Source: Arthrobacter caoxuetaonis (GTDB lineage Bacteria; Actinomycetota; Actinomycetes; Actinomycetales; Micrococcaceae). From it: a DNA stretch of 64,000 nucleotides. The notes under the pieces are model-generated. The model was not told where the DNA came from and did not search any database. It saw only the letters and a list, made by a program, of their open reading frames with translations. The position numbers were made by a program, and so were the translations under genes. The stretch's first letter is position 1. Every line of letters starts with the position of its first letter. Below, in pieces: positions 265-63,926 of this stretch. The stretch lies in NCBI RefSeq assembly GCF_023921125.1, contig NZ_CP099466.1:1860001-1924000 (forward strand), given 5' to 3'.

Positions 265-1917
265 TCATTCAACCATCTTGGGTGCCGGATCCGCAGGCGC
301 CTGCCGGGCACGCCGCCGCCAAGTGCGTCCCGCCAGCTCTTCCGCAGCCTGCAGCGAAAGTGAACCCAGGACAATAAAGTACGGCACGTAGAGGTACAGG
401 AAGCGGGCCCGCCCTTCGGAAAACATCAGGAACACCAGCAGGCCCAGCAGCCCCAGTCTGGCGGTTACCGGGCCCAGCGCCTGGAGCCGCTCTCCCCGGA
501 GGAACAGTGCTGCGCCGCACAGCCCCAGCAGCAGGAACCAGGTGCCCTGCCACACCGAGAGAAGGAACCCGAAGCCCGGACGCCCCGGGCCGTAGAAGTC
601 CTGGACCCAGCGGCTGAAGCTGTCCTCGGCAAGGAAAGCGTTCGCGTCCATGCTGCCTTCTCCCCAGCTGAAGAACGATCCGTCGCCGGTGATCCAGCGC
701 AGTTTCGCGTTCAGGAAAGCTGCGTACCCGCCCGGGCCCATGGACTCGACCCGTTCCGTATACGCCCGCAGTCCTGCGTTGAACCGCTCCTTCGGATCCT
801 CGACCGCCAGGGTGCTGGTTCGGTCTTTTTCGTTGTACGCACCGTAGTAATCCCCGTGAGGTCCTGGATACTGCTGCGCTCCCACCTTGAGGAAGTGGGT
901 AAAGGGGAGTGTCTGGCTGTCCGAGGTCCCCGCTGCGGGAAAACCAGATACCTCCTTCCAGCTGTTCAGTGCTGCGTTGGTCCCTGCGAAGGTTCCTGCG
1001 GCCAGCACGGCGGCAACCGTGCCTGCCAGCAGGTCCTGCCGCCAGTTCGAGCGGCGGATGGACAGCAGGAGCACCAGCACGGCGCCTGCCAGGGCAATCA
1101 GGACTGTTGGTTTGATGCCGTAGCCGACGGCCGCTGCCGCTCCGGCGGCGGCCCAGAGCAGGAGCCGGCCGGGCAGCCGGGACCGTGCAGCCAACCCCAC
1201 CAGGCAGAGGATGAGGATCGGAAACAGCAGTCCGGCCGTATCCGAGTAGAAGACCGGCAGCCAGGGAGAAAGCGCAATAAGGATGATCGAGGGCACCAGG
1301 GTCAGCCTGGCAGCCTGCTTTCCGCCGAAAAGATAACCACAGGCATACGTCAGCAGCATCCCGGAGAAAAGCACCGCGGCGTTCAGGTAGGCGACTGACT
1401 GCCGCAGGTCCACCGCACCAAAGGACTCTGCTGCTTCCAGGTACTTGCCCAGGAGCAGCATGAGCAGCAGATTGTTGGGGTTCACCTCGAAGTAGCCCCG
1501 GTCTGCTGCCTCGGGTGTCCCTTCGGAAACCGCTGTCCCGGAATAGTAGATCGCGGCCGCGTCCCAGTCCGGCGGCAGCCTGACCGCATCGGCCACGCGG
1601 GCACTAACCGCAAAGACCGCGGCCCATCCCAGCAGCGCGGCTGGTATCTGCAGCCACCGCACCGGGGACAGGGCGGCATCAAGCCGGGAGAGCAGCCAGG
1701 GATAGCCTGCAGCAAGGACCAGCACTGCGGCACCTGCCAGGACGGCAGCCCACGTCTCATAGCGGGAGTAGCCGTAGGAAGGCACCACCAGGTTGGACAG
1801 CGCCAGCCAGAGAATGAGCGCGCACCACAGCAGGCCCGCAAAGCGGGGCAGCAGCCCGGCGGTGCGGGTGGTTTGCCTGGACCCGCCAACAGGTCCTTGG
1901 CGTGCTGTGTGGCTCAT
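265..1917 (-). CDS. Polytopic membrane protein, GT39/ArnT-like glycosyltransferase (putative)
   Basis: A 550-residue membrane protein with about 11-13 hydrophobic segments. After a first membrane helix it has an exported loop around residues 118-150 (LPPDWDAAAIYYSGT, then YFEVNPNNLLLMLLLGKYLE), where families that use polyprenyl-phosphate sugars carry their catalytic acid. A second hydrophilic loop lies at about residues 330-430. This layout fits GT-C fold mannosyl- or arabinosyl-transferase-like proteins, but no family-specific motif is certain. The start ATG at 1917 has a GAGGG ribosome site 3 bases upstream. It is followed after 4 bases by pepN. A role in cell-envelope glycan assembly is inference only. 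Confidence 0.7.
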   Translation of the reverse strand: MSHTARQGPVGGSRQTTRTAGLLPRFAGLLWCALILWLALSNLVVPSYGYSRYETWAAVLAGAAVLVLAAGYPWLLSRLDAALSPVRWLQIPAALLGWAAVFAVSARVADAVRLPPDWDAAAIYYSGTAVSEGTPEAADRGYFEVNPNNLLLMLLLGKYLEAAESFGAVDLRQSVAYLNAAVLFSGMLLTYACGYLFGGKQAARLTLVPSIILIALSPWLPVFYSDTAGLLFPILILCLVGLAARSRLPGRLLLWAAAGAAAAVGYGIKPTVLIALAGAVLVLLLSIRRSNWRQDLLAGTVAAVLAAGTFAGTNAALNSWKEVSGFPAAGTSDSQTLPFTHFLKVGAQQYPGPHGDYYGAYNEKDRTSTLAVEDPKERFNAGLRAYTERVESMGPGGYAAFLNAKLRWITGDGSFFSWGEGSMDANAFLAEDSFSRWVQDFYGPGRPGFGFLLSVWQGTWFLLLGLCGAALFLRGERLQALGPVTARLGLLGLLVFLMFSEGRARFLYLYVPYFIVLGSLSLQAAEELAGRTWRRRARQAPADPAPKMVE

Positions 1918-1988
1918 GGTCCCTCGGGCAGCCAGGGTGGGTCGAAAGATTCTCGAGCCTATTGCGCAGGCGGCACCGGGGACAATAC

Positions 1989-3011
1989 TCAGCCGGCGGG
2001 CACCAGGAGGACAGCCAGGATTAGCGCGCCGGAGACAATGAGGGACCAGGACACCAGCGAGGCGGCGACTGCCGGGCCGCCCGTCCGTGCCAGCTGCCGG
2101 AGGTTTACGGATACGCCGAGTCCGAAGAGGGCGGCAGCGAACAGTACTTCCTGGAGACCGGCGGCCACGTCGAGGACCCCGGAGGGCAGTACCCCGGACG
2201 TGCGGAGCGCCACAGCGGCCAGGAAGCCCGCCACGAACAGCGGGACCAGCGGAGGGTACGTGCCGGTTCCTTCGCTGCGCCGGCGATGGTCGAGTCCGGC
2301 CAGGGCACTGACCGGAGCGAGCATCAGCACGCGGACCAGCTTGACGACGACGGCCAGGGCCAGGGCTGCGGGCCCCGCCGTCTGTGCAGTCGCCACGACC
2401 TGCCCCACGTCGTGCACCGAAGCGCCGGTGAGGAATCCGAAGGTGTCCGGGGACAGTCCAAGCATGCCGGACAGCAGTGGAAGCACGGCGATGGCCAAAG
2501 TTCCGCAGAGGGTCACCATGGCCGCCGGGACAGCGGTCCGCTCAGCGGGGACCGCCCGGGCAGCGGCAACTGCGCCGACGGCGGAGACACCGCAGATCGA
2601 GAATCCCGCAGCGACGAGGACGGATTCCTCACCGGGCAGGCGGAAGAGGCGGCAGATGAACCAGGTGGCAGCGAACGAGAAACCGACCAGGGCGATGACG
2701 AGTCCCACCGAGATCCAGCCGAGCCCGGCAATGTCGACCAGTGACACCTTCAGGCCCAGCAGGACAATTCCCAGCCGGAGGAATCTCTTGGCAGCCAGCG
2801 CAATTCCGGGCCGCCAGCTTCCAGCCGCAAGCGCCGCGGGACCGGGAATATTGCCCGCCAGCAGGCCCAGCACCACGGCCGCGGTGAGCACCGGAATGCC
2901 GGCGGCCACCCGGTGCAGGAGGAACCCGGCCAGCACGGCAACAGCCACAGCTGCCAGGCCGGGGGCCAGTTTACGGAGGTCGGCGGGTTGCGGCATGGTC
3001 TTACTGTTCAT
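1989..3011 (-). CDS. YeiH/UPF0324-family putative sulfate exporter-like permease
   Basis: A 340-residue integral membrane protein of the YeiH (UPF0324) family, with about ten membrane helices. Family-type segments are LTAAVVLGLLAGNIPGPAA near the N-terminus, RLGIVLLGLKVSL, and the glycine-rich central stretch AGFSICGVSAVGAVAAARAV, with GASVHDVGQVVATAQ further on. The transported substrate of this family is not firmly known; 'sulfate exporter' is a database label. ATG at 3011 is preferred to an upstream TTG at 3032, because the TTG falls inside a perfect 24-base inverted repeat that looks like an operator. The gene is divergent from the P-type ATPase at 3115, so the 100-base gap must hold both promoters. 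Confidence 0.8.
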   Translation of the reverse strand: MNSKTMPQPADLRKLAPGLAAVAVAVLAGFLLHRVAAGIPVLTAAVVLGLLAGNIPGPAALAAGSWRPGIALAAKRFLRLGIVLLGLKVSLVDIAGLGWISVGLVIALVGFSFAATWFICRLFRLPGEESVLVAAGFSICGVSAVGAVAAARAVPAERTAVPAAMVTLCGTLAIAVLPLLSGMLGLSPDTFGFLTGASVHDVGQVVATAQTAGPAALALAVVVKLVRVLMLAPVSALAGLDHRRRSEGTGTYPPLVPLFVAGFLAAVALRTSGVLPSGVLDVAAGLQEVLFAAALFGLGVSVNLRQLARTGGPAVAASLVSWSLIVSGALILAVLLVPAG

Positions 3012-3035
3012 GAGTTGGACCCCCCGGTCCAACTC
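3012..3035. promoter_or_regulatory. Perfect inverted repeat abutting the yeiH-like start codon
   Basis: Arms GAGTTGGACC (3012-3021) and GGTCCAACTC (3026-3035) are perfect complements separated by CCCC. The repeat ends one base before the ATG of the minus-strand permease gene and lies in the divergent gap with the ATPase gene. It could be a repressor operator or, in RNA, a hairpin hiding the ribosome site. No T-run follows, which argues against a terminator. Confidence 0.6.
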
Positions 3036-3070
3036 CGCTGCGATCGGTTACCGCCCGGAGCGCCCGTTGG

Positions 3071-3076
3071 TAGACT
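3071..3076 (+). promoter_or_regulatory. Candidate -10 box of the P-type ATPase gene
   Basis: TAGACT matches the actinobacterial TANNNT -10 box and lies 38 bases before the ATG at 3115. This would give a leader of roughly 30 bases that includes the AGGGG ribosome site at 3103-3107. The -35 region is not convincing. Confidence 0.35.
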
Positions 3077-3114
3077 TGGCAGACCATCCGCCGAGCCCAG
3101 TACAGGGGCAGCCC

Positions 3115-5904
3115 ATGCAGCATGGCAGCGATCCGCCGGCCGGCGCGTCTCCCGCCCCGGCCACCGATCCCGAGTCCCGCGTACCAGCACCATGGACCCT
3201 TCCGGGGCCTGAGGTCGCTTCCCTTCTCGGCACGGACGCCCACAGCGGCCTTACGCACCGCGCCGTAGAGGAACGCCGTTCTGAGTACGGGCTTAACCGG
3301 CTGGCCGGGAAGCCCGCGGTTCCGGCGTGGCGCAAGATTCTGGCGCTGCTCTCGGACCGGCTGATCCTGGTCCTCCTCGCTGCCGCCGTCCTCAGCGCCG
3401 TCGTTTCCGGGGAACTCGAAACTCCGATCGTCATTCTTGCCGTCGTCATCCTGAACACCACCCTGAACTATGTCCAGGAGCGCCGGGCGGAGAACAGCCT
3501 GGAGGCCCTCCGGAAAACGGATGTAGGCACCACCCGGGTCCGCCGGGATGGCACGACTGCCACAGTTCCCCGCGAAGACCTGGTTCCCGGGGACATCGTC
3601 CTCCTGGAAGCGGGGGACTCCGTTCCGGCGGACGGACGCCTGCTGGAAGCAGTGCGGCTCCAGGCAGCTGAAGCGGCCCTTACGGGTGAATCCCAGCCAG
3701 TCAACAAGGACGCGCAGGCCACCCCGGACGCAGACGCACCACTCGGCGACCGCCACAGCATGCTGTACATGGGCACGGACATCAGCCGGGGCCGTGCCCT
3801 GATGGTCGTCACGGGCACGGGGATGGCCACCCAAATGGGACACATCGCTCATATGCTCGGCAGCACCCCGGATGAAAAGACAACCCTGCAGCGCAGCATT
3901 GACCAGTTGGCCGCGCTCCTGACGTGGATCGCCCTTGCCGTCGTGGCACTTGTTTTCCTGCTGGGACTGCTGCGCGGTGAGGACCTGAGCACCCTGCTCC
4001 TGACCTCGGTGTCCCTGGCCGTGGCCACCATCCCAGAGGGACTCACCGCCGTCGTGGCCTTCACTCTCGCCATGGGTGCGTCGCGCCTTGCCGCCCGCGG
4101 AGCCATCATCAAACAACTCTCCGCCGTGGAGACCCTCGGCGGGACGTCGCAGATCTGCACGGACAAAACCGGCACCCTGACACTGAACGAAATGACTGCG
4201 CGCCGCATCCTCGGCCCCGCCGGGCCCACCTTTCGGGTCACCGGGACCGGCTACGGCGTAGACGGCAAGATTCTGAGCCCGGACGGCGACCAGGTTCCGG
4301 CACTGACCGAGGCGTACCTCGCCATGGCCCTTTGCAACGATGCCTCCGTCACCGACGGCATCCTCTCCGGCGACCCGACTGAAGGTGCACTGGTGGTGCT
4401 CGCCGAGAAGGGAGGCATCGATCCGATGGGAGCGCGGGCGACGCATCCCCGGGTCGCGGAAATCCCCTTCGACTCCGCCTATAAGTACATGGCGACTTTC
4501 AACACCAGCAGGAACGAACCGGGAACCGTCCACTGCAACGTCAAGGGTGCACCCGGCGTCGTCCTGGAAATGTGCTCCCACGCAGCCGTTGCGGGCGGCG
4601 TCGAACCGCTGGACACCGGTTGGCGGGAACGCCTGGCAGAGGAAGTGGCGGCAATGGCCGGATCCGGGCTGCGGACCATGGCCGTTGCCGGACGCTGGCT
4701 GGATGATCCGGTGCCCGAGGACCCGGCAGGCCTCAAGGAAACGGCGACGAACCTTGTCCTGTACGCCGTCGTCGGCATCATGGACCCGCCCCGCCCCGAA
4801 GCGCGTGAGGCAATCGAGCGTGCCCACGGAGCAGGCATCAGCGTCCACATGATCACCGGGGACCATCTTGTCACTGCTTCGGCAATCGCCGAGGACCTCG
4901 GTATCCGGGGCAGCGCCGTTTCCGGCGCGGACCTGGACGGGCTCAGCCAGGACGAACTCGAAGCGAGGGCACCGCAGTACGGCGTGCTGGCCCGGGTTTC
5001 TCCCGAACACAAACTGAGGGTGGTCGAGGCGCTCCAGGCCGACGGAAGTGTCGTTGCCATGACCGGCGACGGCGTCAACGACGCCCCGGCGCTCAAGCGG
5101 GCCGACATTGGAATTGCCATGGGGATCACGGGAACGGATGTTTCCAAGGGCGCGGCGCGAATGATTCTCACCGATGACAACTTCGCCACGATCGTCGACG
5201 CTGTCGAGGAGGGGCGCGGCATCTATGCCAATATCCTCAAGTTCGTCCGTTTCCAGCTCACCACTGCGTGGGGATTCGTACTGATGTTCCTCGCCGCGGC
5301 AACGTTCGGATTCGCCGGGGGAGCGCCCTTCACCGCAATCCAGATTCTCTGGGTCAACATCATCATGGACGGGCCGCCGGCGCTGGCACTCGGGGTGGAC
5401 CGGACCGATCCCAGCGTCATGCGGCAGCCGCCGCGGAAGCCGCGGGAGCCGCTGCTTACCGGCCAGCGGCTGGTGGGGCTGCTGGTGTCCGGGATCGTGA
5501 TGGCGGCGGGAACCTGCTGGGTCGGGCTCGCCTCACCGTCGATCTTCCCGGGAAGCGAAGCACCGGGGGAGGACTTCGCGACCACCATGGCGTTCACTAC
5601 CTTCGTGTTCTACCAGGTCTTCAACCTGCTGAACGTCCGCAGCGAAACGTCGTCGGTCTTCTCACTGCAGACCTTCACCAACCGGAGCATCTGGCTGGCC
5701 CTGGGCGCCGTCGTCGTGCTCCAGATCCTGGTGGTGCAGGTGGGCGTGCTGGAGAACCTGTTCGACACATCCCCCCTGACCGCGGACCAGTGGCTGCTGT
5801 GCATTGGTACGGCTGCCAGCATCATCGTCGTCTCCGAAATCAGCAAGGCAGCCGCCGCCATCCGGCGCCGCCGGGCTACCAGGGAGACGGCCGGTAATCC
5901 TTGA
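3115..5904 (+). CDS. Cation-transporting P-type ATPase, P2A/P2B (Ca2+-ATPase-like)
   Basis: A 929-residue P2-type ATPase that pumps a cation, probably Ca2+ or a related ion, across the cytoplasmic membrane using ATP. Visible motifs in order: N-terminal cation-ATPase domain, actuator TGES at residues 190-193, PEGL ion-binding turn at 307-310, phosphorylation site DKTGTLT beginning at D350, hinge MTGDGVND at 649-656, and C-terminal membrane helices from about 710 onward. PEGL and overall length are typical of SERCA/PMR1-like bacterial pumps; heavy-metal CPX motifs are absent. ATG 3115 was chosen over much longer upstream readings because it has AGGGG 7 bases before it and the upstream reading runs antisense through the permease gene. 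Its last 29 bases overlap the convergent SDR gene. Confidence 0.9.
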   Translation: MQHGSDPPAGASPAPATDPESRVPAPWTLPGPEVASLLGTDAHSGLTHRAVEERRSEYGLNRLAGKPAVPAWRKILALLSDRLILVLLAAAVLSAVVSGELETPIVILAVVILNTTLNYVQERRAENSLEALRKTDVGTTRVRRDGTTATVPREDLVPGDIVLLEAGDSVPADGRLLEAVRLQAAEAALTGESQPVNKDAQATPDADAPLGDRHSMLYMGTDISRGRALMVVTGTGMATQMGHIAHMLGSTPDEKTTLQRSIDQLAALLTWIALAVVALVFLLGLLRGEDLSTLLLTSVSLAVATIPEGLTAVVAFTLAMGASRLAARGAIIKQLSAVETLGGTSQICTDKTGTLTLNEMTARRILGPAGPTFRVTGTGYGVDGKILSPDGDQVPALTEAYLAMALCNDASVTDGILSGDPTEGALVVLAEKGGIDPMGARATHPRVAEIPFDSAYKYMATFNTSRNEPGTVHCNVKGAPGVVLEMCSHAAVAGGVEPLDTGWRERLAEEVAAMAGSGLRTMAVAGRWLDDPVPEDPAGLKETATNLVLYAVVGIMDPPRPEAREAIERAHGAGISVHMITGDHLVTASAIAEDLGIRGSAVSGADLDGLSQDELEARAPQYGVLARVSPEHKLRVVEALQADGSVVAMTGDGVNDAPALKRADIGIAMGITGTDVSKGAARMILTDDNFATIVDAVEEGRGIYANILKFVRFQLTTAWGFVLMFLAAATFGFAGGAPFTAIQILWVNIIMDGPPALALGVDRTDPSVMRQPPRKPREPLLTGQRLVGLLVSGIVMAAGTCWVGLASPSIFPGSEAPGEDFATTMAFTTFVFYQVFNLLNVRSETSSVFSLQTFTNRSIWLALGAVVVLQILVVQVGVLENLFDTSPLTADQWLLCIGTAASIIVVSEISKAAAAIRRRRATRETAGNP

Positions 5905-54958: not shown

Positions 54959-55261
54959 CTAGCCTTCGCAGTCCACGCAGTACTTGTCGCCGTTCTTCTC
55001 CCGTGCAACCTGGGAACGGTGGCGAACGAGGAAGCAGGACATGCAGGTGAACTCATCAGCCTGGGCCGGAACAACCTTGATCAGCAGTTCCTCACCGGAG
55101 AGATCCGCGCCGGGCAGGTCGAACCCGTCGATGGCGTCGGACTCCTCGACATCGATAACCGCTGTCATCGCTCCGCCGCGCTGCTGTGCCTTCAGGCCCT
55201 CCAGCGAGTCGGTGGGCTGGTCTTCTTCCTTGACGCGCGGGGCATCGTAATCGGTAGCCAT
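54959..55261 (-). CDS. DUF4193 family protein
   Basis: A 100-residue acidic protein conserved in Actinobacteria, with a C-terminal zinc-ribbon-like pair FTCMSCFLVRHRSQ and KYCVDCEG. The function is unknown. In mycobacteria (Rv2699c) it lies divergent from the DUF3093 gene near dut; here those neighbours are missing and a recombinase element lies upstream instead. AGGAGT lies 13 bases before the ATG, a little far. A TATGAT -10 box is 44 bases upstream. Confidence 0.9.
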   Translation of the reverse strand: MATDYDAPRVKEEDQPTDSLEGLKAQQRGGAMTAVIDVEESDAIDGFDLPGADLSGEELLIKVVPAQADEFTCMSCFLVRHRSQVAREKNGDKYCVDCEG

Positions 55262-55311: not shown

Positions 55312-55528
55312 TAGCTGAAGCAGCCGATCACACCAAACGGCCGCCGCTTGGGTCGGAATGAGGCGTCCGGGGAGTCCGAATGGTCAGTTCCCTTCCTGAA
55401 GAAGCCGACACGGCCTGCGGCCCGGAGTGCCTGATGGGTCTTCCTGCAGACAATCCCCTTGCATTTACAGGTCGACGCCCGTACAACGACGCTTCCCCTG
55501 GAAATGTTCCCGGACGATCAGCGATGCG

Positions 55529-55820
55529 TTATGTCAACCCGTTCCAGGGCAGGCGAGGCTTCACGGGGGATTATGTCAACCAGAAATGGGCCGCCCAACA
55601 AACGCCAACATGACGAGAAACACGCAAGGACCTTTTACAATCCGGGAGTTCCGAGTCTGGTGTTACAAGAGTGGCCGGGCACGGAGCTTCAGCCGGGGCG
55701 CTGTTGAATGCCGCAGACGGGCCGGCGAGCCGCTTGGTACAAACGGCGGCAATAATGTGAGGCAGGCCACTTTCAGGCCCTGTTCTTTAACGCCGATAAT
55801 CTACATTATGTCAACTAGAA
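55529..55820 (+). repeat. Three direct repeats TTATGTCAACC near the left end
   Basis: Copies at 55529-55539, 55571-55585 (extended TTATGTCAACCAGAA) and 55806-55820 (TTATGTCAACTAGAA). Start-to-start spacing is 42 and 235 bases. They may be arm-type recombinase binding sites; no copies were noticed elsewhere in the window. Confidence 0.6.
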
Positions 55821-56004
55821 GACGGCACATTCCAGGAAAGTGCGAATAGGCCGGTCCGCTGACACCTGCCCCGTTTGGCGCGTGAATCCGGGGAACAAGG
55901 CGTAATGACAGCCCGAAGAAGAACGCTGGATGATTCTTCATCCACGCGGGCGGCCTGCCCAAACCGGCGTCTGACTAGGCGTTTTAGTACGACGATTGAC
56001 CAAG

Positions 56005-56021
56005 TTCGCATAATATGCGAA
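56005..56021. promoter_or_regulatory. Perfect palindrome upstream of the recombinase gene
   Basis: TTCGCATA and TATGCGAA meet around a single central A. Another TTCGCA half-site follows at 56025-56030. It ends 27 bases before ATG 56049 and is a good operator candidate for the element's own HTH protein. Confidence 0.6.
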
Positions 56022-56048
56022 AGTTTCGCACATGACGCAGAGACGAAC

Positions 56049-57164
56049 ATGACGGGTTTACCGCCCGGGGTTGTCCCCCTTCAGCTGGCCCAGGGCCTGC
56101 CCGTACTCCATCCCGAGGAACTTGTGTGGGTGGAGATGCTCAATGGATGGTGCAACCAGCAGCTCGGCCGCAACCTGTCCTTCACGACAATCGACCAGCG
56201 AATCGCGAACATCGAACGGTTCAGGCGGTTCACGGAAAAGTACCCGTGGCACTGGGAGGTGACAGACATGGATGACTTCTCCCTGGAACTTCGCGGGGTC
56301 CGCGGTGTTAGCCACTCGACGATGCTCAACTATCAAGGATCGGTCCGGCTCTTCATGGAGTATGTGACTGATTCAAGTTACGGCTGGGCTGAAGAGTGCC
56401 TGAAGCGGTTCGGAACCCATCCTGCGCAAATAGCCTTCGAATGGAACACGGCAAGGCATCGCGAAGACTCTATGGGCGGTCCGAAGAAGCGCCCCTACAC
56501 CCGGGAAGAATTGCAGGTCCTCTTCGACTGCGCGGACAACCATGTCGTGGCTGCCCAGCGGTCCGGCCACAAAGGCTGGGCGGCCTGGTTCAGGCTCGCA
56601 ACGATGATGAAAACTGCCTACGCATGGGGACTGAGACGCAATGAGGTCCGGCAACTGGAGCTGGCGGACTTCGGGCGCAACCCGGCCGCCAAAAGCTTCC
56701 GGGGTTTCGGGATGGTTTACGTGCGCCATGGGAAAGCCAAGGCCGGATCGCCGCCCAAGCACCGAACGGTCGTCACCGTGCCCCAAGCCGATTGGGCAGT
56801 CGACTGTCTCCGGGACTGGATCGATGACATCCGGCCCCGAATCGGCTCAGCGCAGACCAACGACTACGTATTCCCATCCGAGCGCAACGGAGCGATGACG
56901 GCTGATGCCCTCAGCCGGGCATTCACCGTCATCCGGAGAGAAGCAGGCCTTGGCGACGGCCTGGACTTCCACTCACTGCGCCGCTCCTACGTCACACACC
57001 TTATCGAGGACGGATACGACGCGTTCTTCGTGCAGCAACAGGTCGGGCATGAACATGGTTCCACCACGTCGATCTACACTGGCGTATCCCCCGATTACCG
57101 GAACCGTGTGGTGCAGCAAGCCTTCAACCAAATGGCTGCCGAACTAGGCCAGACAGCGGAATGA
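56049..57164 (+). CDS. Tyrosine recombinase/integrase of the element (TnpA-like)
   Basis: A 371-residue site-specific recombinase. The N-terminal SAM-like DNA-binding domain is at about residues 20-110 (HPEELVWVEMLNGWCNQQLG; TMLNYQGSVRLFMEYVT). The catalytic domain has Arg in AYAWGLRRNEVRQLELAD, the beta-hairpin lysine region VRHGKAKAGSPPK, H308-x-x-R311 in HSLRRSYVTHL, H334 in VGHEH and the nucleophile Y343 in TTSIYTGVS. All catalytic residues are present, so the enzyme looks active. ATG 56049 was chosen because it places the start at the family N-terminus, after the palindrome; an ATG at 55905 would add 48 residues across that palindrome. The HTH gene follows 10 bases after the stop. Confidence 0.88.
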   Translation: MTGLPPGVVPLQLAQGLPVLHPEELVWVEMLNGWCNQQLGRNLSFTTIDQRIANIERFRRFTEKYPWHWEVTDMDDFSLELRGVRGVSHSTMLNYQGSVRLFMEYVTDSSYGWAEECLKRFGTHPAQIAFEWNTARHREDSMGGPKKRPYTREELQVLFDCADNHVVAAQRSGHKGWAAWFRLATMMKTAYAWGLRRNEVRQLELADFGRNPAAKSFRGFGMVYVRHGKAKAGSPPKHRTVVTVPQADWAVDCLRDWIDDIRPRIGSAQTNDYVFPSERNGAMTADALSRAFTVIRREAGLGDGLDFHSLRRSYVTHLIEDGYDAFFVQQQVGHEHGSTTSIYTGVSPDYRNRVVQQAFNQMAAELGQTAE

Positions 57165-57174
57165 GAGGCAGAGA

Positions 57175-57516
57175 ATGAATCGGCGTATCGAACACAAATG
57201 GCGGCTCCGGGAGATCATGGCAGCCAGAGGCCTGAACAACATTTCAGACCTGCTCCCCTTGCTCACCGACCGCGGCATCACCTTGTCGGACTCACAGATA
57301 TACCGGCTGGTAGGGCAGAAGCCGGAACGTATGTCATTGGCGCTGCTGGGTGCGATTACCGACGCCCTGGAATGCTCCGTCGAGGATCTCTGCCACTTCG
57401 AAGCGGTATCATCCAACAGCCGGCTTCGACGGACCGTTGGCAGCACGGCCGAGCCCATATCGCTGAATGAAACCATCCGGCCACGGCGTGCCCGGATCCG
57501 CCCCACCGACCGATGA
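57175..57516 (+). CDS. Small XRE-type HTH protein of the element (TnpC-like position)
   Basis: A 113-residue protein. Residues about 10-70 form a Cro/XRE helix-turn-helix (WRLREIMAARGLNNISDLLP; ITLSDSQIYRLVGQKPERMS). The C-terminal tail is basic and probably disordered (RRTVGSTAEP, RPRRARIRP). It may repress the recombinase operon or assist recombination, as the small third protein does in Tn554-like elements (inference). The next gene overlaps its stop by 4 bases (ATGA), so the three genes are one translation unit. Confidence 0.82.
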   Translation: MNRRIEHKWRLREIMAARGLNNISDLLPLLTDRGITLSDSQIYRLVGQKPERMSLALLGAITDALECSVEDLCHFEAVSSNSRLRRTVGSTAEPISLNETIRPRRARIRPTDR

Positions 57517-58976
57517 ACAGCAGTCCCCGGACCTGCGCCCGCTGCACCCGCACAGGTGTGAAGTTTGCCGTCACGTGGCCGGAAGGCAGCATCTGCCGGC
57601 GCTGTCATCAGCGGATCACTCGCATCCACGGGGTCTGCCCCGGCTGCGGGGAACAGCGGCTCCTGCCCGGCCTCTCCCCTTCCGGGGAGACTGTTTGCGT
57701 GGATTGCGCCCAAATTCCGGCAAACTTCCACTGCACCAGGTGTGGAGTTGAGGATGAGCCGGTCCGGACGGGTCTCTGCGCGCGTTGCTGCCTGAAAGAT
57801 GACCTCGGAGATCTGCTGCGCGATGAGCACGGCGGCATCGCTGAGCATATGCTCCCGCTTTATCGGGCACTAACAACACAAGCGAACGCGCGCAGTGCCA
57901 GGGTCTGGATGATTACCAATAAGCCGGCGAAAGAGCTGCTGCGCGCCCTGGGGACCGGCTCAGCCTCCCTCACACACGAAACATTTACTCAGCACCCGAC
58001 ACCGGGAAAAGTTCAGCATCTGCGCAAACTGATGATGAGTTTGGAAATGATCGAGGAACGCAACGGGCGCATCGAACGGTTTGAAATCTGGCTCGACCAG
58101 AAGTTGCTGAAAGTCCCCTCCCCGAAGCGCAAGCGGCTAATCGCGCAATTCGCGAGGTTCGTCCACTTGAACCGGATGCGCCATCTGGCCAGCCACAACA
58201 GCCTCAAGGAAGGCACCCTGCTGAGTGCTCGTCAGTCCACCTCGACGGCCATCGAGTTCCTCGAGTTCTTGGACGGGCGCGGAAAGGACCCTGGTGAATG
58301 CACCCAGGAGGACATCAACGATTGGCTGGCGGGAGGGCCAACAACCCGAAGCCTCGCCCGCACGTTCGCCAGATGGGCCATGGGAGCCCGGCACATCCCT
58401 AAACTCGACTTCCCGTACCGCGTAGCCAAGACGCTTCCCCGACTTAGCCAAGACCGTCGTCTGGAGTTGATTCGCCGTGCTCTAGACGATGATGAACTTG
58501 ACTCCGGCGACCGCGCTGCATGCCTACTCATGCTCCTCTTCGGCCAGCCCCTCACGCGAGTCGCCGCCATGAAGATGGAGCAGTTTTTGCACTCCGACGA
58601 CGGTGGTTTGCAGGTCGTTTTCGGCGAGGACCCGATCGAAGTCCCAGCCGTTTTCAGCCCAGTCTTCAAGGACTACCTCGCCAACCGGCCAAATACGAAT
58701 ACCGCCTCCAACCCAGGCTCGCCCTGGTGCTTTCCCGGATTCAGCCCGGGCGAGCACATTAGCGCGAACCGCCTCATGATTCGATTGCGTGAGGTGGGAA
58801 TCGATTTGCAGGGAGCAAAGAATGCAACCCTCCAGGAACTTGTCCTGTTGATACCGCCGGCCATTGCAGCCGATGCCTTGGGCTACAGCTATCAGGTGAT
58901 GGACATCCACGAACAACGCGCTGGTGCCCGCTGGAAGGCGTACCCCGAACTTGTGAGATCCCAAAGCAAGGACTAA
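57513..58976 (+). CDS. Zinc-finger tyrosine-recombinase-like protein (TnpB-like), degenerate
   Basis: A 487-residue protein. The first 95 residues have twelve cysteines in six CxxC pairs (CARC, CRRC, CPGC, CVDC, CTRC, CARC), probably three zinc ribbons. A phage-integrase-type fold follows: residues about 195-280 are the N-terminal SAM-like region, and ACLLMLLFGQPLTRVAAMKM carries the first catalytic Arg position. The usual HxxR box is replaced by QELVLLIPPAIAADALGYS, and no clear nucleophilic tyrosine follows. It probably does not cut DNA itself but acts with the first recombinase (inference). Its last 41 codons lie in the 226-base repeat found again at 61165. Confidence 0.8.
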   Translation: MNSSPRTCARCTRTGVKFAVTWPEGSICRRCHQRITRIHGVCPGCGEQRLLPGLSPSGETVCVDCAQIPANFHCTRCGVEDEPVRTGLCARCCLKDDLGDLLRDEHGGIAEHMLPLYRALTTQANARSARVWMITNKPAKELLRALGTGSASLTHETFTQHPTPGKVQHLRKLMMSLEMIEERNGRIERFEIWLDQKLLKVPSPKRKRLIAQFARFVHLNRMRHLASHNSLKEGTLLSARQSTSTAIEFLEFLDGRGKDPGECTQEDINDWLAGGPTTRSLARTFARWAMGARHIPKLDFPYRVAKTLPRLSQDRRLELIRRALDDDELDSGDRAACLLMLLFGQPLTRVAAMKMEQFLHSDDGGLQVVFGEDPIEVPAVFSPVFKDYLANRPNTNTASNPGSPWCFPGFSPGEHISANRLMIRLREVGIDLQGAKNATLQELVLLIPPAIAADALGYSYQVMDIHEQRAGARWKAYPELVRSQSKD

Positions 58977-59078
58977 TCAGGGATGGCGGCCCCAGCCACC
59001 CTGACACGCGCCGGAACCGAAGAATCGGCCCGAAGTGGTAGGAATTGGCCGGTTAGGCAAATGCCGGGTTACCAGTAG
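58853..59078. repeat. 226-base direct repeat, copy 1 (element right end)
   Basis: Identical to 61165-61390 except for A at 59060 versus C at 61372. It contains the last 41 codons of the zinc-finger recombinase gene and about 100 bases after its stop. Sequences differ completely outside both copies. Confidence 0.95.
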
Positions 59079-59209
59079 GCCAGTACCACTTAGCCCCTAT
59101 CCGGAGGAGTTTCCGACACGGCCTTTTTAAATCCGAGCCAGGAATGCAGATGCTGCGGCCGCCGTGAAGGCGCGACGAATTGCGGTAACTACCATGTATC
59201 CCCCTAGGT

Positions 59210-59695
59210 ATGGCTGCCAAAGTCGGCAGGTGCGGCAGAGTCTACGTAAAAAATGGCTACGATATTCGGACCGATGAAAGGGGTGTAAAATACTCGATTC
59301 CAGAAACCGAGCCCCAGGGCTCAATGAATGGTGCGTTCTACCTGCCAAAGGATGCTCCGGCGTCAGGCGAGGTGAGCATTATGGGTACTGTCGATGGCAA
59401 TTGCGGGACGGCCACCCTCACCGGCGCCGGTAAGAGCTTTTTCACTGCATACGCCATAAAGCCGTGGTTCGGTGCGGCGTTCAAACACACTTGGCGAGTT
59501 GCCGTGTCATCATCGTCGGGTTATCAGGTCTACAACCTTGACGGGTTCGCACCTCTAATTGGCAACTGGTCCACCAGCCGCTCCATCTCGTTCGCCGGCA
59601 AACCCTACAACGGGTGGGTCTCCACCGGCACCGTGACCACCCGGATTGGTGCTGTCTGCGGTTCGATGACGCCCGGGGACCTCTGGTACTCGTAA
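59210..59695 (+). CDS. Unknown protein, possibly a secreted protein without its signal peptide
   Basis: A 161-residue frame. The second half is rich in G, S, T, F and Y and looks like a beta-rich extracellular domain (FFTAYAIKPWFGAAFKHTWR; GYQVYNLDGFAPLIGNWS), with two cysteines (NCGTATL, AVCGSM) that could form a disulfide. No signal peptide or good ribosome site precedes ATG 59210, so the gene may have lost its 5' end. It lies just right of the element's copy-1 end, in the segment between the two repeats. The function is unknown; a stem-loop follows the stop. Confidence 0.5.
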   Translation: MAAKVGRCGRVYVKNGYDIRTDERGVKYSIPETEPQGSMNGAFYLPKDAPASGEVSIMGTVDGNCGTATLTGAGKSFFTAYAIKPWFGAAFKHTWRVAVSSSSGYQVYNLDGFAPLIGNWSTSRSISFAGKPYNGWVSTGTVTTRIGAVCGSMTPGDLWYS

Positions 59696-59703
59696 AGACG
59701 GCA

Positions 59704-59746
59704 CAGAGGCCCCGATTGGAGAGGACATTTCCGATCGGGGCCTCTG
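59704..59746 (+). terminator. Stem-loop after the gene at 59210
   Basis: Arms CAGAGGCCCCGAT and ATCGGGGCCTCTG (13 pairs, 59704-59716 with 59734-59746). No T-run follows. Confidence 0.6.
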
Positions 59747-59838
59747 GCTTGAAGCGAACCATTTACTGAAGGCAAGCCGAATGCGATGCTGGGCACCATC
59801 GACCAGTCTCGGTCCGTCCGACAAAGGAAGGAGTCGCT

Positions 59839-60450
59839 ATGCGGGGAATAAGGCATAAACGGGGGACTGTTTGGCCAGAGGATATGGCCATCCGGATTGA
59901 CGACCACGCGCAGAATCTGAAGATGCTGCTCTTCATCCGGCAGGCCTGGATGATCGCCCAGCACATCGAGATCCCGGAACTCAGCCCTGTGCCTTCGATA
60001 GGTGCATCTAAGATCCCGGAGTCCGCACGCCGCGAGGTGTGGGACGAACGCTGGAAGCAGGAATGGGGCCGCAGCTGGGCCTGGTTCAATGTGAGCAGGG
60101 TTCAAGATGCGCCACTCTCACAGGAAGAGATGCAGAATCTCTCCAGTCCTGGGCAGGGGCTGCACCCGATTGTGCCACCGTTCTGGCCAGTCGAATACGG
60201 CGAAGACGGGTTAGACCTGGTGGCCTTCAGCGCCTGGGACAGACAGACAATGCCGGACTTCCCTTCCAGCTCCGAACAAGATAGCCTTCCGGCGCTGGTC
60301 AAGGCATGGCAAGACGGGCTTACGACAATCATCGTGCTCCCCTATTTGGGGTACTTCGCTCAGCGTCTAAACGACAGCCACCTAGTCGTCTCAGCTGAGA
60401 CAAGGAATGACCCGGAGCTCTACACTCGTGCGCTCCAAACTCGCCGCTGA
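59839..60450 (+). CDS. Unknown protein, possible cargo of the accessory segment
   Basis: A 203-residue soluble protein, rich in W, P and acidic residues, with no recognised domain, signal peptide or membrane helix. Notable parts are WPEDMAIRIDDHAQNLKMLL, REVWDERWKQEWGRSWAWFN and a Pro-rich middle (LHPIVPPFWPVEYGEDGLD). A good AAGGAG ribosome site lies about 7 bases before the ATG, so it is probably translated. It lies between the recombinase element and the fabG remnant and may have arrived with the mobile DNA. No function can be given. Confidence 0.6.
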   Translation: MRGIRHKRGTVWPEDMAIRIDDHAQNLKMLLFIRQAWMIAQHIEIPELSPVPSIGASKIPESARREVWDERWKQEWGRSWAWFNVSRVQDAPLSQEEMQNLSSPGQGLHPIVPPFWPVEYGEDGLDLVAFSAWDRQTMPDFPSSSEQDSLPALVKAWQDGLTTIIVLPYLGYFAQRLNDSHLVVSAETRNDPELYTRALQTRR

Positions 60451-60506
60451 TGCCGAGTAATGCGCAGCCACCAGAGAGTATCGGGCTACTTGTACGGGCC
60501 CGGCAC

Positions 60507-60535
60507 CCCGCGCCGGCCGCAAGTCCCGGCGCGGG
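60507..60535 (-). terminator. Stem-loop after the fabG pseudogene
   Basis: Arms CCCGCGCCGG and CCGGCGCGGG (60507-60516 with 60526-60535) lie 20 bases beyond the fabG stop on the minus strand. There is no T-run; it is probably the former fabG terminator. Confidence 0.5.
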
Positions 60536-60554
60536 CAGGAGAGCGCGGCTGCCG

Positions 60555-61164
60555 CTAGTGCCCCATGCTGCCGCCGCCGTCGCCGTCGACGGGGATGACA
60601 GCTCCGGAGATGTAAGGGGCTTCATCGGAGGATAGCCAGCGGATCACCCGGGCGATCTCTTCCGGCTCAGCAAAGCGTCCCGCCGGGATTCCTTCGAGAT
60701 AGTGGGCCTGCATCTCGTCGGAGACTTCGTTGAACATGTCGGTCTTCACGAAGCCGGGCATGATGACGTTCGCAGTGATCCCCCTGGACCCCAGCTCCCG
60801 CGTCAGGGACCGTGCGATGCCGATGAGCCCGGCCTTGGACGCTGAGTAGTTGATCTGGCCGGCGGCGCCGTAGATAGCGGACACGGATGAGACCAGGACG
60901 ATGCGCCCGCTGCGCTTTTCATCATGCCCTTGGACGCGCGCTTCACGGCACGGAAAGCGCCGGTGAGGTTGGTGTCGACGACGGAGGTGAAGTCCTCCTC
61001 GCAAATGCGCAGGAGCAGCTTGTCGTTGGCGATTCCGGCGTTGGCCACCAGGACGTCCACGGGGCCATGGGCTGCTTCGACTTCCTTGAAGGCTTCGTCG
61101 ATGCTTTCTGAGTCCGTGACATCAGCCCGGACGGCCAGGATGCCTTCGGGCAGGTCGGCGTCGG
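60555..61164 (-). pseudogene. fabG: Broken fabG (3-oxoacyl-ACP reductase), 5'-truncated and frameshifted
   Basis: This is the remains of a MabA/FabG-type reductase of fatty-acid synthesis. Reading down from 61164 gives ILAVRADVTDSESIDEAF, VDVLVANAGIANDKLLLR and TNLTGAFRAVKRASKGMM. The frame then shifts at an A4 run near 60918 and resumes as RSGRIVLVSSVSAIYG, INYSASKAGLIGIARSL and ISGAVIPVDGDGGGSMGH. The catalytic Ser, Tyr and Lys codons survive, but the first 35-40 codons with the NAD(P)-binding TGxxxGIG loop are missing, replaced by the second copy of the element end. Either defect alone would inactivate it. The A-run change could be a sequencing error; the truncation is not easily explained that way. 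Confidence 0.85.
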
Positions 61165-61390
61165 ACCGCCGGCCATTGCAGCCGATGCCTTGGGCTACAG
61201 CTATCAGGTGATGGACATCCACGAACAACGCGCTGGTGCCCGCTGGAAGGCGTACCCCGAACTTGTGAGATCCCAAAGCAAGGACTAATCAGGGATGGCG
61301 GCCCCAGCCACCCTGACACGCGCCGGAACCGAAGAATCGGCCCGAAGTGGTAGGAATTGGCCGGTTAGGCACATGCCGGGTTACCAGTAG
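61165..61390. repeat. 226-base direct repeat, copy 2 (orphan element right end)
   Basis: A second copy of 58853-59078 with one mismatch (61372). It joins the truncated 5' side of fabG directly and is all that remains of another element copy. The offset between copies is exactly 2312 bases. Confidence 0.95.
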
Positions 61391-61642
61391 TAGTCTGCGT
61401 ATCGCATCAAATGAATCATTCGTGTGGGTCGGCGTCGCTCCCCTCCAATGGTCGCGGAAAGGTGTGCTGACCTGCGAGAATGCAGGACCTTGTGGGCCGG
61501 TGGTGTGCGCATCAAGCGTCAGGGTGATGTTGGCGATCACCAAACCTTCATCCGCAAGGGGTTCCACCGGAGTTCCTTCGATCAGGAAGTAGTAGCAGTT
61601 TACTACTGGTTCGCCACCCGGGTGATAGTGTTCTACTACCAC
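61391..61642 (-). pseudogene. Truncated reading frame cut by the repeat (unrecognised)
   Basis: A minus-strand frame from about 61642 reads PVEPLADEGLVIANITLTLD and GPAFSQVSTPFRDHWRGATP before running into the 226-base repeat at 61390, where native sequence ends. It has protein-like composition but no family was recognised. A palindrome at 61588-61607 lies inside its 5' part, so either the start is further in or the frame is not a gene. It faces hxlR divergently, the usual place of an HxlR target gene. Confidence 0.3.
61588..61607. promoter_or_regulatory. Inverted repeat upstream of hxlR
   Basis: AGTAGTA (61588-61594) and TACTACT (61601-61607) around GCAGTT. A similar weaker pair TAGT/ACTA is at 61626-61638. 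Together they are likely HxlR operator sites in the gap before the gene. Confidence 0.5.
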
Positions 61643-61656
61643 TCGCGGAGGTGACA

Positions 61657-62169
61657 ATGGAAGGCAAGCGCTCTAGTTGCCCCATCAATCGGGGTGTTGA
61701 GTTCCTCGGAGATCGGTGGAGTCTGCTGATCCTTCGGGACATGGCGTTCGTGGGTTCGCACGGTTTCCGTGAGTTGCTGGCAAGTTCACAGGAGGGCATC
61801 TCGCCCTCGACGCTGTCTGCGCGGCTGAAGTCACTGGAATGGTCTGGGCTGGTCAGCAAGATCGGAGCTCCTCGAGGACACCAAGGCTCCTACACCCTCA
61901 CCGAGGAGGGCATCCAACTCGTTCCCCTACTGTTCGAACTGGCCCACATCGGATCAATGCTCGACCCGACAACCAGGTCGACGGAACCGCGATTCCAAGG
62001 CTGGTATGGAGACGCTGAGAAGATCGCGGCGTACATGGATGAGCTTCGAGAGCGCGAAGGCCTCACCCCCAGCACGAACGCAGCGGTTGAGTCTCCCCAG
62101 GAGCCGCCCCCGACCAGCCGAATGGAACGTCAGGGCTCGCGTGACTTGGATCGGGCGCGAGAGAAATGA
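61657..62169 (+). CDS. HxlR-family transcription regulator
   Basis: A 170-residue winged-helix regulator. The HxlR signature is complete: CPINRGVEFLGDRWSLLILR with its first-helix cysteine, GFRELLASSQEGISPSTLSA and RLKSLEWSGLVSKIG. The C-terminal 60 residues are a charged tail. Members often sense redox or reactive carbonyl compounds through the conserved Cys; here the cysteine is near residue 8 of the domain. GGAGG lies 5 bases before ATG 61657. The alkD-like gene overlaps its stop (ATGA), so it may control DNA repair of alkylation damage (inference). Confidence 0.85.
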   Translation: MEGKRSSCPINRGVEFLGDRWSLLILRDMAFVGSHGFRELLASSQEGISPSTLSARLKSLEWSGLVSKIGAPRGHQGSYTLTEEGIQLVPLLFELAHIGSMLDPTTRSTEPRFQGWYGDAEKIAAYMDELREREGLTPSTNAAVESPQEPPPTSRMERQGSRDLDRAREK

Positions 62170-62849
62170 CGACCTATACCAAGCTCGCCGAGATCCTCGA
62201 CACCCTCGACGAAGAGGCCGACCCTGAAGCACGCCAAGCGATGGGTGACCAGTACGGGATCCACGCCGGAAGCTCCTATGGGGTTCCAATGCGGCGGTTG
62301 TTGGAGATCGCCAAGGCCACAGGAATCGACCACGATCTCGCCCTCGCACTATGGGATCAGGGGTCATACGAGGCGCAAACCCTTGCAGCCATGGTGGATG
62401 ACCCCGGCCAAGTCACCAGAGACCAAATGCAGCGCTGGTGCGAGGACTTCGACAACTGGGCAGTCGTCGACACTGTGTGCTTTCGACTGTTCGACAAGTG
62501 CACGCATGCCTGGACGATGGTCGACTGCTGGGTCGCCGATGACCGCCTGTTTGTGCGACGAGCCGGTTTCGCCCTCATCTGGGCCTTGGCCCTTCATGAC
62601 CGAGCCGCGCCCGATCACCAATTTCTAAAGGCACTCGACTACGCCCAGGCGGCCAGCCGGGATCAGCGGCCTCTGGTCGGGAAGTCGATCACGATGGCGA
62701 TGCGAGCCATCGCCACCAAGCGACCAACGCTGCTCACCGATGTCGTCACCATTGCCAACCGACTCTGCGACGATGGCGATCCTGCAGCGCGACGCGTGGG
62801 AAGGCCGATCCAGCGAAGTTTCGGTACCCGCACATCAGCAGGTAAGTGA
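62166..62849 (+). CDS. DNA alkylation repair protein (AlkD/HEAT-repeat type), 3' end altered
   Basis: A 227-residue all-helical HEAT-repeat protein of the AlkD/DUF1061-type group that removes or binds alkylated bases. It has YGIHAGSSYGVPMRRLLEIA near the N-terminus, DNWAVVDTVCFRLFDKCTHA (D/W residues of the active cleft) and LVGKSITMAMRAIATKRPTL. The last 18 residues (RRVGRPIQRSFGTRTSAGK) do not look like the family C-terminus, and an unrelated coding fragment reads antisense from here, so the 3' end was probably replaced at about 62800. It is co-translated with hxlR by a 4-base overlap. Confidence 0.78.
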   Translation: MTTYTKLAEILDTLDEEADPEARQAMGDQYGIHAGSSYGVPMRRLLEIAKATGIDHDLALALWDQGSYEAQTLAAMVDDPGQVTRDQMQRWCEDFDNWAVVDTVCFRLFDKCTHAWTMVDCWVADDRLFVRRAGFALIWALALHDRAAPDHQFLKALDYAQAASRDQRPLVGKSITMAMRAIATKRPTLLTDVVTIANRLCDDGDPAARRVGRPIQRSFGTRTSAGK

Positions 62850-63057
62850 CCGATCGCGCTTCGTCCCAGTTGCGGAATCTCAACGGGAAACCGTTGATCG
62901 GCTTGCCGGCCAGGCGCCATTGCGTCCCGTAAGACCTGTCCGGCTCTATGTCCGGGTCGGGTTCCCCGTGCAACCAAACACCTGGCCGCCCGACCTGCCC
63001 ATTACCACCGTCGATTTTGACGCCAATTCGCCGAGTCTTGATACGCAGAGTGTCCAA
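62806..63057 (-). other. Orphan coding fragment (unrecognised)
   Basis: A minus-strand frame reads IDGGNGQVGRPGVWLHGEPD and RLAGKPINGFPLRFRNWDEA with high GC at third positions, but has no start, stop or ribosome site of its own and runs into the alkD-like 3' end. It may be a remnant of a lost gene. No family was recognised. The 290 bases between the alkD-like gene and the last SDR gene contain nothing else. Confidence 0.2.
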
Positions 63058-63127
63058 TAGACGTGAGATAGGAGTCCCCCGGGCACTGCCCGCCCGGAAG
63101 GCTGTGCGCGGACCGGCCCGGCGGGCG

Positions 63128-63140: not shown

Positions 63141-63926
63141 ATGACACGCACATACATCGTTACGGGATCCGCCTCCGGCATCGGCGCAGCAACCGCTGAG
63201 CTCCTGAAGGAACGCGGCAACACAGTGATCGGCGTTGACCTTCGCAATGCCGACGTCGAGGCGGATCTGAGCACACCCGAGGGCCGGCAGATCGCCGCAG
63301 ACCGGGCCGTGGAGCTCGCCGGCGGCTCGGTAGACGCCGTGATCGCCTGCGCGGGCATTTCCGCACCCATCCCCCTCACCGTCTCGGTCAACTTCTTCGG
63401 CGTCACGGAGTTCCTGGACCGGCTGGCACCGGTACTGGCAGGAAGCGAAGCGCCGCGCGCCGTCGTCGTCAGTTCCATGGCATCCCTGCAGCCCAACTCC
63501 CCCGAGCTCGTCGACGCCATGCTTGCCGGGGATGAAGCGCTGGCCCGCCAGATCGGCCAGAAACTCGCTGACCAGGGCCCGCAGATCGGCTACCTGAACT
63601 ACCCCTCCAGCAAGCGCGCCCTGAGCCGCTGGGTACGCCGGGAGTCGGTCAGCGACCGCTACGCCGGCAACGGCATCCCGCTCAACGCTGTTGCCCCGGG
63701 AACCGTCCTCACGGCGATGACGAAGGAACTCCTGGCCACGCCGGAGGGCGTGAAGATGGTGGACGAGAACGTGCCCATGCCCCTAAACGGCCACTCGGAG
63801 CCCGTAGTGATTGCACGGCTGCTGGCCTGGCTCGCCAGCGAAGAAAACTCACACCTGGCCGGCCAGACGATCTACTGCGACGGCGGAGCAGACGCGACCC
63901 TGCGCGGGGACGACATCTGGGGCTAG
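63141..63926 (+). CDS. SDR-family NAD(P)-dependent oxidoreductase
   Basis: A 261-residue short-chain dehydrogenase of the 3-alpha-hydroxysteroid-dehydrogenase-like group. The cofactor loop is TGSASGIGAATAELL at residues 8-22, CAGIS follows at about 71, and the catalytic triad is in VVVSSMASLQ (Ser) and YLNYPSSKRAL (Tyr and Lys). NAVAPGTVLTAMTKELL and LAGQTIYCDGGADATL complete the fold. It is intact, unlike the fabG remnant 2 kb to the left, and is not its missing half. The substrate is unknown. A -10 box lies 7 bases before the ATG and a strong nested stem-loop follows. Confidence 0.88.
   Translation: MTRTYIVTGSASGIGAATAELLKERGNTVIGVDLRNADVEADLSTPEGRQIAADRAVELAGGSVDAVIACAGISAPIPLTVSVNFFGVTEFLDRLAPVLAGSEAPRAVVVSSMASLQPNSPELVDAMLAGDEALARQIGQKLADQGPQIGYLNYPSSKRALSRWVRRESVSDRYAGNGIPLNAVAPGTVLTAMTKELLATPEGVKMVDENVPMPLNGHSEPVVIARLLAWLASEENSHLAGQTIYCDGGADATLRGDDIWG

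Follow-up and report, generated by a model that had tools for sequence, protein, structure and literature searches.

A three-gene recombinase element beside the dif site of Arthrobacter caoxuetaonis, with relatives across actinobacteria

The window, a 64,000-nucleotide stretch of the Arthrobacter caoxuetaonis chromosome (NZ_CP099466.1, positions 1,860,001 to 1,924,000, numbered here from its first letter), carries a gene trio encoding a catalytic tyrosine recombinase (P1), a small helix-turn-helix (HTH) protein and a zinc-finger pseudo-recombinase (P3). Bacteria use the site dif to separate joined chromosome copies, and the trio lies in a 3.26-kb unit, element 1, set directly against the outer edge of a dif arm, with dif itself intact. 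We read the trio element as a small mobile element that inserts site-specifically at dif, in which P1 would cut and join DNA while P3 and the HTH protein place P1 on dif, and assign this reading a probability of roughly 0.78. The trio core was already known from a 2018 description (PMC6305408; this and the other cited papers are represented throughout by excerpts of their text). The new result is dif as the target, of which no account for trio elements in actinobacteria was found among the titles and abstract openings of the matches listed in an open-access library.

Results

Element 1 abuts an intact dif site

The site upstream of P1, AACGCCGATAATCTACATTATGTCAACT, agrees at 24 of 28 bases with the dif suggested for Frankia alni, CACGCCGATAATGCACATTATGTCAAGT (PMC3025954, excerpt). 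The pattern CGCCGATAA-N6-TTATGTMAA has one exact match on the 3.56-Mb chromosome, the reversed-pattern control giving 0, and occurs with at most one mismatch in all 29 of 29 genomes of the genus. With dnaA at 720 and dif at 1,915,791 of 3,555,050, the site is positioned 54% of the way round. The genome's other dif-like site, carrying one mismatch, is located on a second contig (L083, C2:40522-40545), where a P1 search found no copy.

Empty sites in relatives have the order DUF4193 gene, dif, SDR gene, the last starting ~125 bp after dif in the empty relative G308. The same two genes flank the window site, but 7.2 kb sits between them. Joining the window flanks at dif and 63062 yields a gap-free alignment to six empty sites from dif to GTCCCCC, with gaps beyond. 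Element left ends stand at the same place beside dif in two other genus members (G300 and G316), and none was seen by eye beside dif in the other 26 of the 29 genomes.

The left end of element 1 (~55818) is constant in the window, L004 and L013 after variable bases, while its right end coincides with the end of a 226-bp repeat and with the end of the match to L004. An initial annotation, made from the window letters alone, had bounded the module at 55312..59078; its right bound is the right end of the element, but the left end lies at ~55818, not 55312. Absent from it were dif, the second right-end copy and the segments that extend to ~63055 (Table 1).

Table 1. Features at the insertion locus, in window positions
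Feature	Position	Strand	Evidence
Host flank gene, DUF4193	54959..55261	-	Pfam PF13834 E 1.4e-39; shared by genus relatives as left flank of dif
Chromosomal dif (XerCD) site, whole, left edge of insertion	55789..55816	+	Arm-pattern match; likeness to F. alni dif
Element 1, trio-only, 3.26 kb, beside dif	55818..59078	+	Left-end constancy; right-end repeat; match to L004
P1, catalytic tyrosine recombinase	56049..57164	+	Pfam Phage_integrase E 4.9e-23; catalytic residues conserved
XRE/Cro-type HTH protein	57175..57516	+	Pfam HTH_26 E 2.2e-12
P3, zinc-finger pseudo-recombinase (recombinase fold, lacking the HxxR His and the usual Tyr)	57513..58976	+	Alignment of 44; AlphaFold2 and fold searches
Right-end repeat, copy 1	58853..59078	+	226-bp repeat
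Segment 2, no recombinase, same right end as element 1	59079..61390	+	Repeat 61165-61390; starts at element 1 right end
FabG-like SDR remnant, N-terminal part missing, cut by right-end copy	60555..61164	-	Pfam adh_short_C2 E 1.2e-30 for 60555-61004
Right-end repeat, copy 2	61165..61390	+	226-bp repeat
Segment 3, no recombinase, Paenarthrobacter-type left end	61391..63055	+	Left-end bases compared with L008
Cargo, HxlR-type regulator	61651..62169	+	Pfam E 7.4e-12
Cargo, DNA alkylation repair protein	62166..62849	+	Pfam DNA_alkylation E 7.9e-21
Six bases at far junction of the pile, then host flank	63056..63061	+	Joined-flank alignment to empty sites
Host flank gene, SDR	63141..63926	+	Pfam; gene order in relatives

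Near-identical elements occupy different dif-like sites

Paenarthrobacter YJN-5 has two plasmids with different dif-like sites, each adjoined by the same 4.74-kb element (99.9%). In A. agilis TMP24, a 3.27-kb element (99.97%) likewise recurs at different dif-like sites on two plasmids, and three dif-like sites of G456 each adjoin a trio-only element of ~3.2 kb (99.8%); identities across these three strains span 99.8-100%. Since the elements stay near-constant and the dif centres and flanks vary, we place dif in the target and reject its assignment to the element.

P. ureafaciens AT bears two tandem copies of a unit on pA; this unit is also present as a circular record, pD, of 4,712 bp. This circle contains no dif-like site (best 12 of 18), which argues against host XerCD as the integrase; a dif-like core is likewise lacking within 55818-63057 of the window (best 12 of 18). 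In the window, SF27, AT and YJN-5, the right-end bases read AGTAG, ACTAG or ACTAA and resemble those following dif; A. agilis (ACGCG) and G456 (another sequence) do not share this pattern. The contigs of L048, L160, L161, L169 and L211 stop 252-261 bp before P1, near the element left end, a pattern expected when repeated or circular elements break an assembly.

Many trios across actinobacteria stand at near-fixed distances from dif-like sites

P3 relatives are present in 244 plasmid records and, with E to 1e-20, in 34 of 297 genomes from the order. With E to 1e-40, P1 relatives are present in 60 of 245 family-level and 11 of 396 phylum-level genomes, each genome count including the own genome. 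One genome-contig scan with P3 matched Arthrobacter sp. SF27 alone. HTH and P3 genes follow P1 in 120 of 128 P1 copies, in a sample drawn by P1 or P3 matches and so biased that way; the three genes do travel together, and similar trios recur in actinobacteria as the initial annotation had it. The trio family is real and widespread.

Two copies counted as distinct when they differed in the stretch from 250 bp before to 200 bp after the start of the match. As a result, identical elements at other sites, with dif beyond that stretch, fell together: L008 was absorbed by the circle L007, L010 by L009 and L012 by L011. Removal of the L063 minus copy (22% identity, not family) and of 8 copies with <350 bp upstream reduced the 128 copies to 119. 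At a threshold of 14/18 or more, a dif-like site precedes P1 in 53 of these 119, a 14/18 site 742 bp away in L178 having been judged chance (54 to 53). In the window orientation, 33 of 37 such sites lie 216-267 bp before P1; in the other orientation, 14 of 16 lie 180-188 bp before it. The own chromosome yields 0 sites at this threshold in 799,080 strand positions. These near-fixed distances and the zero background count led us to reject chance proximity to dif. Similarity to umuC/umuD occurs within ~1.3 kb upstream in 17 of the 66 copies without a dif-like site, versus 0 of the 53 with one.

Two plasmids of Kocuria rosea strain 13 (L118 and L119, ~1866-4571) each have a dif-like site (15/18) with a trio on either side; the two trios are divergent and belong to different lineages. 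Upstream of P1 in G513 (L200), the dif-like site used by a second-orientation trio also adjoins what looks like a reversed Paenarthrobacter-type left end, so that both sides of one dif-like site again appear, by eye, to be used.

P1 retains its active site and P3 lacks the catalytic motifs

The three open reading frames (ORFs) lie where the initial annotation placed them, those of the HTH protein and P3 sharing 4 bases (57513-57516). P1 possesses the complete set of catalytic residues claimed for it, R196, K229, H308, R311, H334 and Y343, of which H308, R311, H334 and Y343 are kept in 48 of 48 P1 copies and R196 and K229 in 47. The XRE-type character of the middle protein likewise stands (Table 1).

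P3, 487 residues long here, contains twelve cysteines arranged as six CxxC pairs within residues 8-92; of 44 aligned homologues, 40-44 keep each of these, and gaps account for the remainder. Pfam finds no integrase domain in P3 and a weak integrase match in just 2 of its 44 relatives. The AlphaFold2 model (pLDDT 91.4) nevertheless places residues ~199-485 among Xer, integron, Tn1549 and Cre recombinases in fold searches. In an approximate register, the HxxR histidine is absent from 44 of 44 homologues, its paired arginine is R in 35 and K in 9, and the position of the catalytic tyrosine holds His in 41, Tyr in 2 and a gap in 1. These data bear out the initial description of a second recombinase-fold protein with twelve cysteines and no HxxR, and support a trio of one catalytic recombinase, one HTH protein and one zinc-bearing partner without catalytic motifs. 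A PDB sequence search with P3 returned six chains (E 0.028-0.69), mostly ribosomal L37e; a PHROGs search with P3 found nothing, and phage records gave no match to the element DNA.

P3 is modestly favoured as the address subunit

For trees, 92 copies with all three genes long enough were thinned to 68, L182 and others standing outside them. On the P3 tree, all 21 window-orientation dif users fall in one clade (97/92), together with three rows without a scored dif: by eye, L188 follows the right end of another element, the site of L123 is degenerate and L229 is unexplained. On the P1 tree, the window-orientation users are split. The 7 second-orientation rows, joined by one row without a scored site, form one lineage on both trees, and this lineage uses the opposite side of dif. 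Forcing all dif users together on the P1 tree costs 34.3 log units (p 0.021). The third protein of the plasmid pA2H2, from a trio of the umuDC type, shows the P3 architecture after ~345 residues with further CxxC pairs.

The tree comparison and the different zinc blocks thus favour P3 as the address, and suggest with modest strength that it is the site selector of the trio. The initial annotation held that the zinc partner had lost catalysis and selects sites; the first half agrees with the missing motifs, and the second draws modest, indirect support from the P1 and P3 trees and the zinc blocks. A choice of target by P1 or the HTH protein is a serious alternative, if short of even odds. Dif labels cluster on the P1 tree as well, with 7 changes versus 24.3 when shuffled, a point that also tells against P3 as the selector, as do three points about the trees. 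Constraining the P1 tree to a single window-orientation clade costs 7.3 log units at a borderline p of 0.0498 in the approximately unbiased (AU) test; the clade of all dif users that the P3 tree already contains is weak (75/78); and the AU-tested groups were completed by hand after the trees had been seen, by adding L188, L123, L229 and L204. The P3 tree requires fewer changes (6) and unites the first orientation in the one clade described above, which argues for P3.

Further segments lie behind element 1

The two 226-bp right-end copies differ by one mismatch, and the genome has no further copy. Segment 2 holds two ORFs without a Pfam match and the truncated FabG, another frame of which extends into repeat copy 2. 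The repeated right end and the Paenarthrobacter-type left end of segment 3 point to successive landings, and several elements therefore seem to have landed one behind another at dif.

Discussion

We propose that P1 would cut and join DNA within a short crossover adjoining the dif arm, where it would be placed by the HTH protein and by P3, a recombinase fold with catalysis lost and six CxxC zinc knuckles. The element would move through a circle by a Tn554/SE-like route. With dif spared, chromosome dimer resolution would keep working and the site would be harmless to the host; later insertions would land behind earlier ones, producing piles at dif.

Circular replicons have a conserved harbour in dif. 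The known IMEX depend on host XerCD, whereas the trio family, with its own recombinase, reaches dif on chromosomes and plasmids in several genera, spares it, can occupy both of its sides and offers an explanation for cargo piled there. The family also gives meaning to plasmid proteins annotated as 'recombinase XerD' or hypothetical, and makes it possible to test whether a pseudo-recombinase steers its catalytic partner. More tentatively, and as the less probable outcome, the trios may form a transposon superfamily in which the dead zinc-bearing recombinase is an exchangeable address subunit, one zinc block directing insertion to either side of dif and a longer zinc array to umuDC, with the dif lineages exploiting, and leaving undamaged, the one site that circular replicons must keep.

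Several observations pull against insertion at dif by such a trio. P3 has an invariant Y477 (present in 43 of 44, with a gap in the other). The sequence profiles of P1 and P3 show no significant likeness, so their relation rests on folds; since Foldseek TM over the whole of P3 is moreover just 0.2-0.4, the mapping of its lost residues is approximate. As many as 66 of the 119 copies are without a dif-like site, 17 lying by umuC/umuD and 49 near neither, and 6 of the 53 dif-like sites fall outside both distance clusters. The GC skew is flat across the 20 stretches of 20 kb that were sampled and gives no confirmation of the terminus. In P. ureafaciens AT (L007/L008), the junction of the circle is shorter by 2 bases than that of the tandem copies, which may be real or an assembly effect.

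The initial annotation had taken the trio for a Tn554-like family, giving Tn554 the order TnpA-TnpC-TnpB. The Tn554 gene order is reportedly A-B-C. A table passage among the excerpts lists TnpA, TnpB, TnpC and does not confirm the order first given. Plain membership of the Tn554 family would suit elements that are small, site-specific and recombinase-driven, and Tn554-like elements have been published from actinobacteria (PMC3414803). It is nonetheless very improbable: TnpA and TnpB of Tn554 are both RHRY recombinases (PMC10214605), whereas the trio has one RHRY protein, its third protein lacking the HxxR His throughout in the approximate register, and the 828- and 864-aa versions of that protein have no Pfam integrase match. 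Some Tn554-like actinobacterial elements, above all the Famint36/41 pairs without TnpC (PMC3414803), may belong to the trio superfamily.

Marginally less probable still is that the elements are IMEX-like passengers put at dif by host XerC/XerD, the trio doing something else. That account fits their placement right at dif, the insertion point of IMEX such as LME-1, which also leave one dif intact (PMC9765430). Against it, insertion occurs beside dif and not in its centre, neither the circle nor the pile contains a dif-like site, the P1 active site is whole in 47-48 of 48 copies, and other trios are located by umuDC. A replicon-maintenance (dimer resolution) system, not mobile and beside its own dif-like site, is just as remote: recombinase genes do stand beside dif-like sites on chromosomes and plasmids, but the 26 genus genomes in which no element left end was seen beside dif, the near-identical copies at several sites of one genome, and the tandem copies, circle, cargo and piles all speak for mobility.

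Comparison with known systems

The closest match to the trio element is the 'XER modules' of Antarctic Arthrobacter plasmids (Romaniuk et al. 2018, PMC6305408), which share the core order of XerD-like recombinase, XRE regulator and second recombinase-like protein and carry variable cargo. The claim that the family lacks a good description was thus nearly right, the trio having been noted there; the phrase 'dif site' is absent from the main text of PMC6305408. In the pA2H2 module, P1 is 40.5% identical to the window P1, and the third protein, 828 aa versus 487 aa here, is 25% identical to P3. In three published plasmids, XER modules sit between umuC and umuD according to the excerpts, in contrast to the window copy at dif, and no dif-like site lies upstream of the pA2H2 (L246) P1 (best 11 of 18). 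The trios of pA2H2 and pAP13 (L249) stand beside umuC/umuD with third proteins of 828 and 864 aa. The 17 surveyed copies with umuC or umuD upstream accord with the published placement of the XER modules.

IMEX such as LME-1 insert at dif and leave an intact dif on one side, as here, but LME-1 relies on the host recombinase XerL, carries a 22-bp dif copy and recombines within dif (PMC9765430). RIT elements and GInts are likewise recombinase gene clusters, and the GInt protein ginC lacks RHRY; RITs encode three recombinase-related proteins and GInts have four genes, the excerpts mentioning a dif target for neither. The RIT feature of three adjacent tyrosine recombinases is not found here, the middle gene encoding an HTH protein.

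The Tn554-like actinobacterial elements are small and site-specific, with recombinase partners and mostly a third protein, on plasmids and chromosomes (PMC3414803). The excerpted section gives them a 611-828-aa TBSSR and a ~350-aa partner, and describes no zinc domain or dif target. SEs, found by survey in Gammaproteobacteria only (PMC10214605), share with the trio elements the order recombinase, other protein, second recombinase, a circular form and site specificity, and one SE partner (Tfp) lacks RHRY. The short variable junction bases seen here resemble the 6-bp SE fingerprint and footprint, a likeness that is not proof. SEs differ in comprising intA, tfp, intB and srap with two RHRY recombinases, whereas element 1 has three genes and one RHRY protein. 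The trio elements would work like SEs and Tn554 and, by the features compared, are members of neither.

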